Source: an uncultured Oscillospiraceae bacterium (GTDB taxonomy: Bacteria; Bacillota_A; Clostridia; Oscillospirales; Oscillospiraceae). From it: a stretch of 5,312 nucleotides of DNA. Where the stretch lies: positions 1-5,312 of the forward strand of contig CANRKN010000131.1 of NCBI GenBank assembly GCA_947631215.1, read 5' to 3'. This document shows positions 1,405 to 5,312 of the stretch, in pieces (within the stretch, counting starts at the first letter, position 1; every line of letters begins with the position of its first letter). Both the position numbers and the translations under genes were made by a program. The notes below the pieces were generated by a model that was not told the DNA's origin, did not search any database, and saw only the letters and a list, made by a program, of their open reading frames with translations.

Positions 1405-1577
1405 TTCGTGGCCTCACATAAGTGGCAAGCAATGCAGAGTGGTACACACTCTGCGAAAATGGGTCATTCTGGCTTCGCGCCGGAATGACCCATTTGCTTG
1501 TCAGGGCAGCATCCCCGAACCCCTTTGAACAGCTCCGTGCCGGAGCTGGCTGCGCGTTTGGTGCGAAACGCTTTTTT
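1405..1577 (+). repeat. structured intergenic element, copy A
   Basis: Copy A matches copy B (1816-1971) in inverted orientation. Read on the plus strand, GGCAAGCA (1424-1431) pairs with TGCTTGTC (1495-1502, one G-U). Inside lie hairpin 1434-1454 (8 bp, 5-nt loop) and hairpin 1457-1495 (17 pairs including one G-U, loop TTCGC), giving a three-way junction. A 27-nt linker follows (1503-1529), then hairpin 1530-1548 (8 bp), GCTGC, and hairpin 1554-1571 with a run of six T. By hand count 22 of 27 linker bases match copy B, while the stem of the next hairpin is entirely different yet fully paired in both. It is either a small structured RNA with its own terminator or a REP/MITE-like DNA repeat. 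No protein is supported. Confidence 0.7.
1554..1577 (+). terminator. terminator-like hairpin closing copy A
   Basis: GCGTTT (1554-1559) pairs with AAACGC (1566-1571) around a 6-nt loop, followed directly by six T (1572-1577). This is an intrinsic-terminator layout for plus-strand transcription. The stem is short and half A-T, so strength is uncertain. The equivalent hairpin in copy B has a stronger stem and a T-rich tail in the matching direction. Confidence 0.5.
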
Positions 1578-1815
1578 CCTAATGGCGCAAATACATGGTC
1601 TGACAGCCATGTTTTGCGGGGACCCCATGAGGCTATCCCCCGCTGGCTGTCTGACGTGAAAACCTTTATAAGAAACAGGGCGCGTAAGGAAGATGATTTC
1701 ATGTTCCCGACATGATACAAAAGCCGGTTCTCTCATGTCCTGTCACGCCCGTATATTACACCGTCATAACCATGCTCGCAGGTGCAAAAAAGCACCAAAC
1801 CGATACCGAGGACAT
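1578..1815. other. spacer between the inverted copies, no gene seen
   Basis: These 238 bp lie between the two converging element ends. No frame has a credible start and product. The stretch holds one large stem-loop (1598-1655) and a small hairpin, GGTGC and GCACC around six A (1781-1796). No convincing promoter was found on either strand. Confidence 0.5.
1598..1655. repeat. large imperfect stem-loop
   Basis: GTCTGACAGCCA (1598-1609) pairs with TGGCTGTCTGAC (1644-1655) with a single mismatch. Inside, GCGGGG (1616-1621) pairs with CCCCGC (1638-1643), leaving a 6-nt bulge on the 5' side. There is no T tract after it, so it is not an intrinsic terminator. It could be part of a larger folded transcript or another repeat type. 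Confidence 0.6.
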
Positions 1816-1842
1816 ACAAACAAAAGCGTCCCGGCGGGACGC
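1816..1842 (-). terminator. terminator-like hairpin closing copy B
   Basis: On the minus strand GCGTCCC and GGGACGC (1842-1836 and 1832-1826) pair perfectly around a 3-nt loop. The tail TTTTGTTTGT (1825-1816) follows. This is a plausible intrinsic terminator for minus-strand transcription coming from the repeat array. Confidence 0.55.
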
Positions 1843-1971
1843 GCAGCCGCACGATTTATCGTGCGATCAAAGGGTTTTAGGGATGCTTCCCTAACAAGCA
1901 AAAATGGTCATTTCAGCGGGAAGCCGAAATGACCATTTTTCGCATGTGGTGCTCCACATACACTGCTTGCC
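1816..1971 (-). repeat. structured intergenic element, copy B
   Basis: This is the inverted partner of copy A, best read on the minus strand. The closing stem pairs bases 1971-1964 with 1900-1893 (8 pairs, two G-U). Inside are hairpin 1944-1959 (6 bp) and hairpin 1900-1940 (15 perfect pairs, a wobble position, two more pairs). The 27-nt linker (1892-1866), hairpin 1865-1848 (8 bp), GCTGC (1847-1843) and terminal hairpin 1842-1826 follow as in copy A. Bases 1877-1894 can form an alternative 7-bp hairpin that competes with the closing stem. G-U pairs in the closing stem and the long hairpin favour this strand as the RNA sense in both copies. Its 5' side runs into the tandem array. Confidence 0.7.
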
Positions 1972-2290
1972 AGGATTGCGCGAAAGCGAAAGACGGGTAA
2001 GCAGAGAAAACGAAGTTTTCGCGGTATGGGCGCCCACACGCATTGCTTGCCAGTTATGTGCGAGGCAAAATGACTGGCAGGCAATTTTTGCAAAGTGGGG
2101 CCCCACATGCATTGCTTGCCAGGATTGCGCGAAGGCGAAAGACGGGCAAGCAGAGAAAACGAAGTTTTCGCGGTATGGGCGCCCACATGCCCTGCTTGCC
2201 AGGATTGTGCGGAAGCAAAATAACTGGCGGGCAGGGAAACGAAATTTTTTGCATGTGGCTTGCCTCATGCCCTGCTTGCCAGTTTGTTTG
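1961..2290. repeat. tandem array of five hairpin units
   Basis: The word GCTTGCCAG occurs at 1965, 2045, 2114, 2194 and 2274, giving spacings of 80, 69, 80 and 80 bp. Units 1 and 3 plus the start of the following unit (1965-2038 and 2114-2187) differ at only 2 of 74 bases, so there is also a 149-bp higher-order period. Before units 2 to 5 lies a short palindrome or hairpin: TGGGCGCCCA (2027 and 2176), GTGGGGCCCCAC (2095), and an imperfect one at 2251-2270. Four units can also fold a longer stem from GCTTGCC, and in units 2 and 4 G-U pairs keep it closed. The units extend the design of copy B. Long open frames across the array on both strands are repeat artefacts. Confidence 0.8.
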
Positions 2291-2426
2291 AGCCCTCGGA
2301 GGACCGCTTTATTGGACATCTGTTTTGAGCATCAGATATAACTGCGGCCTTGTAAAATCGCTCGCATTCTGTTATCATGCTTTAAAGTAAATTCTTGACC
2401 TGTTCATTCTATCCAGGAGGGCCGCC
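2291..2426 (+). promoter_or_regulatory. leader of the transposon remnant
   Basis: This non-coding stretch runs from the end of the repeat array to the first gene of the remnant. It carries the promoter at 2350-2378 and a perfect AGGAGG ribosome site at 2415-2420, 6 nt before the ATG at 2427. An outer end of the transposon may lie here, but I cannot identify a terminal repeat. Confidence 0.4.
2350..2378 (+). promoter_or_regulatory. sigma-A type promoter with extended -10
   Basis: TTGTAA (2350-2355, 4 of 6 to consensus) is followed after 17 nt by TATCAT (2373-2378, 5 of 6). TG at 2370-2371 forms an extended -10. Transcription would start near 2385, leaving a leader of about 40 nt before the ribosome site and ATG at 2427. 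It would drive the TnpW-like gene and the recombinase fragment. Confidence 0.55.
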
Positions 2427-3177
<751 letters not shown>

Positions 3178-3193
3178 CAGAAAGGAGCCATCA

Positions 3194-3565
3194 ATGGAAT
3201 CATTATTTGAGCAAATGGGCGGTACATACCATTGGGAGGGTGACTTCCTCATCCCAGACTTGGTGCTGTCAGACACCACTGACTATCATGTAGGCAAGTA
3301 TGGACGCATGCGCCACCGCTACCTAAAGGAACACCGCAGAGTGCTGTTTAACATCATGCTCACGAACGAGACCCTCGCCAAGCACGTTGCGGACATCGAC
3401 GCCGCCTGCCGCGAACGGCTGGAGGTCCTGATCCCCGCCATGGCCAAGCAGGAGGGCGTCACAGAGCAGCTCAAAGCAACCGACCAAATGGAATGGGTCC
3501 GCAGAATGAACAGCATCAAGAATCGCGCGGAAGAGATCGTCCTTCAGGAACTGGTCTACGACTGA
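3194..3565 (+). CDS. tnpV: transposon-encoded protein TnpV
   Basis: This 123-residue protein matches the TnpV family of Tn4451-like mobilizable transposons and related conjugative elements along its whole length. Recognisable parts are LFEQMGGTYHWEGDFLIPDL (4-23), the basic RHRYLKEHRR (40-49), the KQEGVTEQLKATDQMEWV segment (85-102) and the ending MNSIKNRAEEIVLQEL (105-120). It is mostly helical and soluble; its biochemical role is not established, though it travels with TnpX-type recombinases. AAGGAG (3182-3187) 6 nt upstream supports ATG 3194. A frame extension upstream to 3125 would have to use the leader stem-loop as code and is rejected. The gene looks intact although its recombinase neighbour is destroyed. 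It ends 13 bp from a convergent gene. Confidence 0.85.
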   Translation: MESLFEQMGGTYHWEGDFLIPDLVLSDTTDYHVGKYGRMRHRYLKEHRRVLFNIMLTNETLAKHVADIDAACRERLEVLIPAMAKQEGVTEQLKATDQMEWVRRMNSIKNRAEEIVLQELVYD

Positions 3566-3578
3566 GAGTACTATAACC

Positions 3579-4454
3579 TCAAAACACGCATTTGGCAAGA
3601 TCGCCGACGCCGTCCCGGAGCTTATACTTGCACACACCGTCAAGCACTTTTTTCTCGATCAGCGTTTTGGTCAAAGCCGCCGTCCATTTTTGGCTGAAAT
3701 TCGTATTGCCGAAATATGCGTTGAAGTTCTGCTGCGGGAGCAGAACGTACTCGCGGCCTTCCTCCTTGTTGGCGATATAGTATTTGCACAGCAAAATGCT
3801 CGCCTCCACGGGGACGCTGCCCGGCGTCAGCTCGGCTAGGCGTTGGACGACCCTTTCCGGCAGTTCAAAATCCTTATCCCGTAGCGGCCCCAGTTCAAGC
3901 GCGTCGGCGAGGATATCGTCAAAACGAAGCACCCACGCGCCTTTTGTATTGGAGGCAAAGGCCGGAACGAGCATCTGCCGGAGCTTATTCGCCCATTGGC
4001 CGCGAAAGCCTTTTTTGAGTGCCAGGACCTTATCCAAAACACCCTTGCGAACGGCACTGGGATTCGTTTCCACAAAGGCGATGATATTCTCCACATGCCG
4101 GATCAGCCAGCCCTCCCCATCAGGGGTCACCAGCTCCGGAAATTCCTGCGCATATTCCCCATAATTCACCCTGCGCCTCGGATCGTCCAGATCCGGGGCC
4201 TTTTTTGTTTTCTCCCCGGAAAGGCTGCACCAGGCCAGCAGCGCCCGGCGGGCACAGTCGATCCTATCATAACCGCTGCCGTCCTCCCGGAAGAGATAGC
4301 CGCGGGCCAGGATCGTCAGAACATGGCGAAAACCCTTGAAGTCCATCAGCATGGGAAAGGTGAAGCGCCCCATGTAGGCGGTGCCGCCCTTGCCCTCCGC
4401 CTTGTATTCGGGAAACTCTGTGTAGGCCGAAAACTCCTCCCATTCATTCAGCAT
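3579..4454 (-). CDS. hypothetical protein, second gene of a coupled pair
   Basis: I do not recognise this 291-residue protein. It is soluble, with no signal peptide or membrane helix. The N-terminal half contains MGRFTFPMLMDFKGFRHVLT (28-47) and RGYLFREDGSGYDR (51-64). A helical middle part follows with GEGWLIRHVENIIAFVE (113-129). The last 80 residues (VEASILLCKYYIANK, then LPQQNFNAYFGNTNFSQKW and LTKTLIEKKVL) have a spacing compatible with a winged-helix fold, which is only a guess. AAGGAGG (4471-4465) lies 10 nt before ATG 4454. The start overlaps the end of the upstream gene by 11 bp, so translational coupling is likely. Its stop lies 13 bp from the stop of convergent tnpV, with no terminator between. 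Codon use and length support a real gene; function is unknown. Confidence 0.75.
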   Translation of the reverse strand: MLNEWEEFSAYTEFPEYKAEGKGGTAYMGRFTFPMLMDFKGFRHVLTILARGYLFREDGSGYDRIDCARRALLAWCSLSGEKTKKAPDLDDPRRRVNYGEYAQEFPELVTPDGEGWLIRHVENIIAFVETNPSAVRKGVLDKVLALKKGFRGQWANKLRQMLVPAFASNTKGAWVLRFDDILADALELGPLRDKDFELPERVVQRLAELTPGSVPVEASILLCKYYIANKEEGREYVLLPQQNFNAYFGNTNFSQKWTAALTKTLIEKKVLDGVCKYKLRDGVGDLAKCVF

Positions 4455-5312
4455 GTTTTCTCAGCCTCCTTATCCAGCCCCTCCTCCGAGACGCGCTCCG
4501 GTCAACGGCCAGCTCCAGCGCCGCTGCCGGCAGCACCTCCAGAATGAACGCCCGCTTGCCCAGGGCCTCCGCACACATCACGGCCTCGTCCCAGTCCAGC
4601 CGCTCCAACACCTTCCCCGGTCCAGGCCGGACATTGGGGCGGATCACGTCCAGACAGTTATGGATCAGCCTCTGGCGGTAGTCCTGGCTGTCCGCAGCAC
4701 CGCGCATCATCCTCTTCATCTGCTCCGTGTCGGTCTGCCGGACGGCCTTGTGCCTCTTTACCTCCATGTCCCGGTGCTGGTCATCCAGGTCCATCAGAAT
4801 GTCCCCCAGCATCCGGTAGCCGCCGCAGCGGAAGTCACAGAGGATGTTCCGGCAGGACGGCAGCCGACCGGTGAAGACCGTGTAGAGCATCAAAAGCCGA
4901 TCCTCTTTGGGGGTAAACTGCCAGCTGGATTCCCGCAGGTTGGACAGCGTCGTATGCACGTCATAGGGGGACATATAGGAGAAAGTGTCATACAGTGCGT
5001 CCACGGATATCTCATTCTCCCGGTCCTGGGAAAAAAGGATACGCTGTATGTCCTTCCGGTAGTTGCCGGAGGACGTTATGTGCCGGTATGCCTCACAGCG
5101 CTGTTTGGCCTTTTCGTAGTCTGCGATGATCGAACGCATACGTTCCAGGGCGTGTGGGTCGAGTCTTTCTTTCCAGCCCAAATCTTTGGCAAAGCTGAAA
5201 AGCTCCGCGCTGTCCGCCGGTTCTACCTTTGGTACTTTCGTTTTTCTCCCCAGCTCGCGGGCATAGAACGGCGTGCGCTCCAGGTTGGCCGTGATCTCAT
5301 CCCAATCGACCC
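4444..5312 (-). CDS. hypothetical protein, 5' end outside the window
   Basis: The frame is open from the right edge to TGA at 4446-4444, giving 288 visible residues; the true start lies beyond the window. A TTG at 5181 is only an internal Leu codon because upstream sequence (VDWDEITANLERTPFYAREL and on) is coding in the same frame. Visible parts are a long charged helix (DPHALERMRSIIADYEKAKQ), YMSPYDVHTTLSNLRESSWQ, a C-x4-C-x3-C cysteine cluster at residues 153, 158 and 162, and a very Arg-rich end (SRRRGWIRRLRKH). No signal peptide or membrane segment is seen in the visible part. I do not recognise the family. The basic tail and cysteines would suit a nucleic-acid-binding or scaffold role, which is inference. 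It overlaps the next gene by 11 bp and is surely in one operon with it. Confidence 0.75.
   Translation of the reverse strand, partial: VDWDEITANLERTPFYARELGRKTKVPKVEPADSAELFSFAKDLGWKERLDPHALERMRSIIADYEKAKQRCEAYRHITSSGNYRKDIQRILFSQDRENEISVDALYDTFSYMSPYDVHTTLSNLRESSWQFTPKEDRLLMLYTVFTGRLPSCRNILCDFRCGGYRMLGDILMDLDDQHRDMEVKRHKAVRQTDTEQMKRMMRGAADSQDYRQRLIHNCLDVIRPNVRPGPGKVLERLDWDEAVMCAEALGKRAFILEVLPAAALELAVDRSASRRRGWIRRLRKHAE

Follow-up and report, generated by a model that had tools for sequence, protein, structure and literature searches.

Facing folded sites on a small serine-recombinase element of gut bacteria as candidate origins of transfer

Relaxase-less mobilisable elements are an already known kind. 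Among the described examples of such IMEs (iOriT) are MGIVflInd1 and MTnSag1, which have an integrase or transposase of their own and no relaxase, and which a helper mobilises through an oriT (PMC5704250, PMC11389934). The putative element that we describe here likewise has its own recombinase and no relaxase match, and would likewise be mobilised by a helper; it differs from the iOriT IMEs in its length of about 3.1 kb, its large serine recombinase, and its two facing sites with a tandem array, from which transfer is proposed. A second point of comparison is the Tn4451/TnpX group. TnpX is made up of Resolvase, Recombinase, zinc-ribbon and DUF4368 domains, and the same four were found by Pfam in two recombinases of the type studied here. 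Tn4451 carries a MobV relaxase (PMC5704250), whereas the element here has no relaxase match and the TnpV gene next to it lies beyond the break in its recombinase. In the mobilisable island SGI1, the non-coding factor by the oriT is an RNA; SGI1 is mobilised only with the help of an sRNA, the sgm-sRNA, whose core excludes the oriT (PMC9299015). The element here also has a non-coding factor of interest, but the candidate is a DNA site. Because SGI1 needs an sRNA, analogy gives no ground for dismissing an RNA role here. In the literature searched, which lay mostly outside subscription journals, we found neither this structure nor comparable sites in a facing or arrayed layout described in any paper, and the sections available of PMC12904643, PMC7563491 and PMC7168690 contained nothing on the site.

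The window, by which we mean the whole stretch of 5,312 nucleotides analysed here, does contain the two converging copies of a folded site that the original prediction had placed in it. Site A (1421-1579, plus strand) is delimited by its fold, model matches and a terminator scan, and its helices, with coordinates read by eye, are P1 (1423-1430/1496-1503), P2 (1434-1454), P3 (1457-1495), P4 (1504-1515), P5 (1530-1548) and P6 with its T tail (1554-1571). Site B (1818-1974, minus strand), recognised by its fold and a model match, is folded as in A, with P6 at 1842-1826, and is the terminal unit of an array. The spacer between the facing sites (1580-1817, bounded by the model matches) is partly conserved among loci. 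Against dinucleotide shuffles the fold of A has a z score of -6.89 and that of B of -7.25, none of 200 shuffles being as good in either case, and the local alignment of A with B scores 63.5, compared with a maximum of 25.5 in 500 single-base shuffles. A recount of the 27-nt linker gave the same 22 of 27 matching positions as before. The hairpin said to be swapped between A and B while staying paired (CAGCTCCG/CGGAGCTG versus CGCACGAT/ATCGTGCG) is also real, and each form was found again in other copies. The T-tailed terminal hairpins that had been described were recovered by the terminator scan in both sites, at 1554-1571 on the plus strand and at 1842-1826 on the minus strand; the region 1250-2460 has no excess of terminator-like sites (2, compared with a shuffle mean of 1.8). 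The Rfam search that had been proposed returned no family for A or B at E <= 1. Pairing of the P4 loop with GGCTGC in a pseudoknot is plausible in A and B, but the loops vary in far copies and we make no claim for it.

Searching genome contigs with the linker pattern gave 15 matches in 14 stretches, 13 of which are in Oscillospiraceae assemblies named Lapin (read as rabbit), the remaining one being in a Clostridia assembly from water buffalo. One more linker match came from a faecal scaffold filed as phage; viral contigs gave no match to the pattern, and a regex search for further core copies found none. Two loci, L002 and L003, were dropped as further copies, being chance matches on reading. 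A covariance model (R1) built from 18 copies matched in 8 of 8 genomes of the linker-pattern loci and, at E <= 1e-4, in 91 genomes out of a single-family sample of 300. The R1 search of loci, which covered 76 sources and left out L052, L055, L059, L060, L062, L063, L018-L047 and L068-L095, gave 91 matches, 89 of them distinct, in which 91.1% of cells pair; shuffled columns give 66.7%, and slid partners no more than 45.9%. Changes on both sides that keep the pairing occur in 41 of 49 pairs of these 91 matches, in an alignment that was fitted to the model and with related sequences, which inflate such scores; a plain alignment of the 18 copies has double changes in 12 of 35 predicted pairs. The claim that the stems change yet stay paired thus has strong support, and the covariance-model check suggested along with it has uncovered further copies.

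Genes within 4 kb of the 91 R1 hits were identified with profiles built on proteins from these loci themselves. The MobC profile was made from 15 clean MobC proteins, and the cluster members checked against Pfam were two recombinases of the window's type and one other (L098), five relaxases, three MobC proteins, and one each of the NikA-like, AAA_25 and integrase proteins. A relaxase (PF03432) lies within 4 kb of 29 of the 91 hits, in 28 of them on the 3' (P4-P6) side (27 tail-to-tail, one upstream), and for 23 hits the distance between the site and the end of the relaxase match is 35 nt or less. MobC is found within 4 kb of 21 hits and a NikA-like protein of a single lineage within 4 kb of 10, in every instance on the 3' side (21/21 and 10/10). 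The hits do not count as independent, since close copies are found among the relaxase loci (several) and the NikA-like loci (all 10). Any mob gene (relaxase, MobC or NikA-like) is present within this range for 45 hits, a serine recombinase for 35, and any of all of these for 74, so that 17 hits have neither mob genes nor a recombinase. Only one of the 29 relaxase-linked hits, L130, has a recombinase match within 4 kb, and the sole exception in side among them, L065, carries the element's own right-end signature. The relaxase-side copies are, as would be expected of an oriT, non-coding inverted-repeat sites by mob genes with a fixed polarity; near A and B there are no mob genes.

Other settings of the site were also seen. 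In L112, L115, L116, L118, L121, L122, L123, L127, L133 and L138 it is part of a module that encodes integrase-cluster, NikA-like and AAA_25 proteins, and the 4 kb around the site gave no relaxase match there. The core of L150 and L151 has a topoisomerase-type gene on one side and a gene for ArdA and ArdC domains on the other, a setting that is not a mob operon, and at L110:5737-6148 two sites diverge instead of facing.

Loci were also chosen by their relaxase and then scanned for the site. Of 50 listed tblastn relaxase matches (25 plasmid and 25 phage), 19 were taken by rank, host and distance, not randomly, and R1 matched at E <= 0.001 in 13 of these 19 (L156-L162, L171, L172, L173, L175, L179 and L182). 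All 13 share one polarity, with the site upstream of the relaxase gene in eight and tail-to-tail with it in five. The match in L176 is marginal (0.069), and L174, L177, L178, L180 and L181 (5 of the 19) gave no R1 match even at E <= 10, although the relaxase of L174 is 50% identical. In the region of pMG2200 adjoined by vanB genes (L156), which we take to be Tn1549, the core lies directly upstream of mobC with an R1 E-value of 1.8e-13; records from Vescimonas, Monoglobus, Anaerococcus and S. agalactiae also have the core directly before mobC, with weaker E-values. When set beside the oriT regions of MOBP (PF03432) elements, represented here by pMG2200, A and B are alike in the core GCAAGCA ... 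GCTTGTTGGGG ... CCCC. Unlike our element, pMG2200 has one site, before mobC, and the P5-P6 match there runs into the mobC frame, so the extension is probably absent. Neither a mapped oriT for the pMG2200 region nor a published oriT for the relaxase branch carrying the site was found in the literature searched. In the related ICESa2603 family the predicted oriT lies in a different region (PMC4735348), and L180, annotated as Tn5252-type, is without an R1 match; agreement with the published oriT of a relative was thus not found, and we therefore do not extend our claim to that branch.

Sites A and B themselves lie in an element of roughly 3.1 kb (2,990 to 3,268 bp between the end points of four elements), in the order left end, recombinase, ORF148, divergent promoter-like site, tandem partial units, B, spacer, inverted A, and right end. 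The right end, CACATAAG at 1415, is flush with the 5' end of A and is placed where homology stops among loci, within 1413-1420, the exact cut not being fixed. The left end is where the loci cease to resemble each other, at about (T)CATAAGACAGT, past the recombinase. Outside flanks differ in most loci at both ends, and L050, L052 and L053 have a common right flank. ORF148 (2427-2873, plus strand) encodes 148 aa conserved beside the recombinase, with no Pfam or NCBIfam match. The large serine recombinase (2870-3039, plus strand), full-length in L048, L049 and L053, is present in the window in its first part only; it breaks off near 3040, cut by other DNA with a TnpV gene (3125-3565). All 11 scanned loci that are of the same type as the window have a large serine recombinase 5' of B, reading away from it, with ORF148 between in most. 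L052, which was outside that scan, has the array and A, and the recombinase is not beside them. A converging A is present for 11 of the 18 B-type sites examined, window included; two of the seven B sites without A are less than 600 nt from a contig end. Because median identity is 87% between A sites and 85% between B sites, compared with 71% between A and B (L160 excluded), we infer from these sequences that the A-type and B-type sites probably parted before the element spread.

No match to a relaxase, MobC or NikA-like protein was found within 4 kb of 20 A/B sites in 11 loci of the window's type, some contigs ending sooner. Over that range the element resembles a relaxase-less IME both in the absence of a relaxase inside it and in being bounded, with common ends in several loci and a recombinase of its own, the copy in the window being broken. 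No clean empty site was found, the joined flanks of two elements giving part matches only. In L168 the flank remains homologous up to 10 nt from the left end, and in L164, L165 and L169 up to 32 to 57 nt from the right end; further out towards the element each has other DNA.

Several features of the surroundings may be recorded here. A perfect 14-bp inverted repeat, TCATGATGTAATTT, lies at the recombinase break in the window (3040-3090), with the TnpV gene next to it. The left end adjoins a palindrome near CCCCCTCGTCAGAGGGGGC in L050, L053, L057, L061 and L063 (one base off in L050 and L061), and the left flank of L054 ends in an apparent terminator stem, seen in the related genome L168. Terminator-like palindromes may be preferred targets of the element. 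In L164, from another genome, the right flank of the window recurs, and close to this copy is an apparent left end, inverted, of a similar element. The remainder of the window (3579-5310) contains two minus-strand ORFs of 291 and 288 aa without a Pfam match.

The array that adjoins B, which the original prediction had missed, has four internal units (2280-2201, 2200-2121, 2120-2052 and 2051-1972, minus strand; repeat family D1) with P1 and P2 and without P4-P6. All begin with GGCAAGCA, and they open with the same two variants as the right ends of the elements (CACATAA or CACAATCC before TGGCAAGC; window 1972-2282, L048-L057). The array looks as if it were built of stacked right ends when the window (1972-2282) is compared with the right ends of L048-L057. 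For the internal units, which are without the GCTTGTTGGGG-P4 part, a role as extra binding sites or an origin as copying leftovers is more likely than a role as nick sites. The leader of the array was considered as its promoter and rejected, as its promoter-like site (TTGTAA-17-TATCAT, 2350-2378, plus strand; similar leader in other loci) points away from the array and reads into ORF148 and the recombinase. Further, weaker promoter-like sites occur on either strand (four found by the promoter scan, compared with 1.1 expected).

A and B are probably two DNA sites in one small mobile element of gut bacteria, and not stand-alone RNA genes. On balance we favour, from sequence comparison, the reading that they are cis-acting sites of the origin-of-transfer type, on an element that has no relaxase of its own and would be mobilised in trans. 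They share a covarying fold with sites by MobC/relaxase operons, whose P4-P6 side is nearly always turned towards the operon. The recombinase would excise the element as a circle, MobC and the relaxase (PF03432) of a co-resident conjugative element would recognise A or B, and the relaxase would nick one strand there, the element then being transferred in trans; the P5-P6 extension would probably also stop transcription entering from outside. Larger conjugative elements may thus carry the small one along, because its sites resemble those by their DNA-nicking genes. PF03432 proteins were found in five of the seven genomes where the element was seen (six of the eight genomes searched), with none in G003 and G005 and weak matches in G001. 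L064, a genome-mate of two such elements, is 84% identical to the nearest A and 81% to the nearest B. L065, at 87%, may itself be an A copy; given its right-end signature, we dropped the claim that it is a helper site whose closeness to A equals that among the A copies. That the two opposed transfer origins and the partial-site array let helper relaxases process either strand, or that different helpers use different sites, is a tentative and somewhat doubtful addition to this scheme.

The facing pair could also serve both strands in another way, as a single-strand initiation site or single-strand promoter, with the folded strand recruiting primase or RNA polymerase for the second strand or for early genes after transfer. 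Facing pairs are also present in L117, another recombinase locus, and in L139, which has no recombinase match, but the pair in L110 diverges. Frpo-type promoters are described in leading regions (PMC11541004), a DnaB/AAA_25-like gene adjoins the site in one module, and in L150 and L151 the core precedes an ArdA/ArdC-type gene. However, the stem sequences vary freely, so there is no fixed -35/-10 within the stems, and an oriT would better account for a position immediately ahead of mobC or at the end of the relaxase gene. We consider this explanation unlikely.

A folded non-coding RNA from the sense strand, or a read-through RNA, with a role in regulation or mobilisation would also have covarying stems, but these are common to folded DNA, and we consider such an RNA quite improbable. 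In the stems of a selected RNA, G-U pairs are expected to outnumber A-C on the transcribed strand. The original prediction had taken G-U pairs to favour one RNA sense strand, a claim that fails outside P1, where, measured against this general expectation, the proposed RNA strand has 75 G-U versus 150 A-C over all copies. The counts are 35 versus 53 in 40 representatives (19 versus 9 sequences, sign test p 0.09) and 33 versus 30 in the element's own 20 sites. The lean towards A-C is not significant after thinning, and the lack of a G-U excess is what counts. G-U is conserved in P1, with 190 G-U cells, but the TTGGGG of P1 also forms a Watson-Crick stem with CCCCAA, and the wobble pairs can be explained by this competing stem. 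The T-tailed terminal hairpins speak for an RNA, as does the mobilisation sRNA known in SGI1 (PMC9299015), but the T tail is missing from several P6 hairpins and the strand relation to neighbour genes varies between settings. Since A starts at the edge of the element, there is no room inside the element for a promoter of its own. Stand-alone RNA genes were rejected for the want of a G-U excess, of promoter room for A, and of an Rfam match. The two-way reading with which the original prediction ended, either an RNA that folds or a DNA repeat moved through its structure, finds no support for its RNA half, given the G-U counts, the Rfam result, the position of A at the element end and the leader promoter that reads away. 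Its DNA half came closer, although mobilisation by self-folding gives way to the better description of an oriT-type site on a recombinase element.

The least probable explanation, and a very unlikely one, is that the serine recombinase or ORF148 has accessory sites at the right end which were multiplied into the array. Although the internal units begin like right ends and A is flush with the right end, the same fold occurs by relaxase operons, and 28 of these 29 hits have no match to a recombinase within 4 kb; recombinase binding is therefore unlikely as the shared role.

If the transfer-origin reading is true, the fold would mark structurally where transfer begins in a large group of gut Bacillota conjugative elements (model matches in 91 of 300 genomes of a single family), and small dependent elements would become findable from sequence alone. 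It would also provide a testable claim on how a two-gene element spreads between cells.
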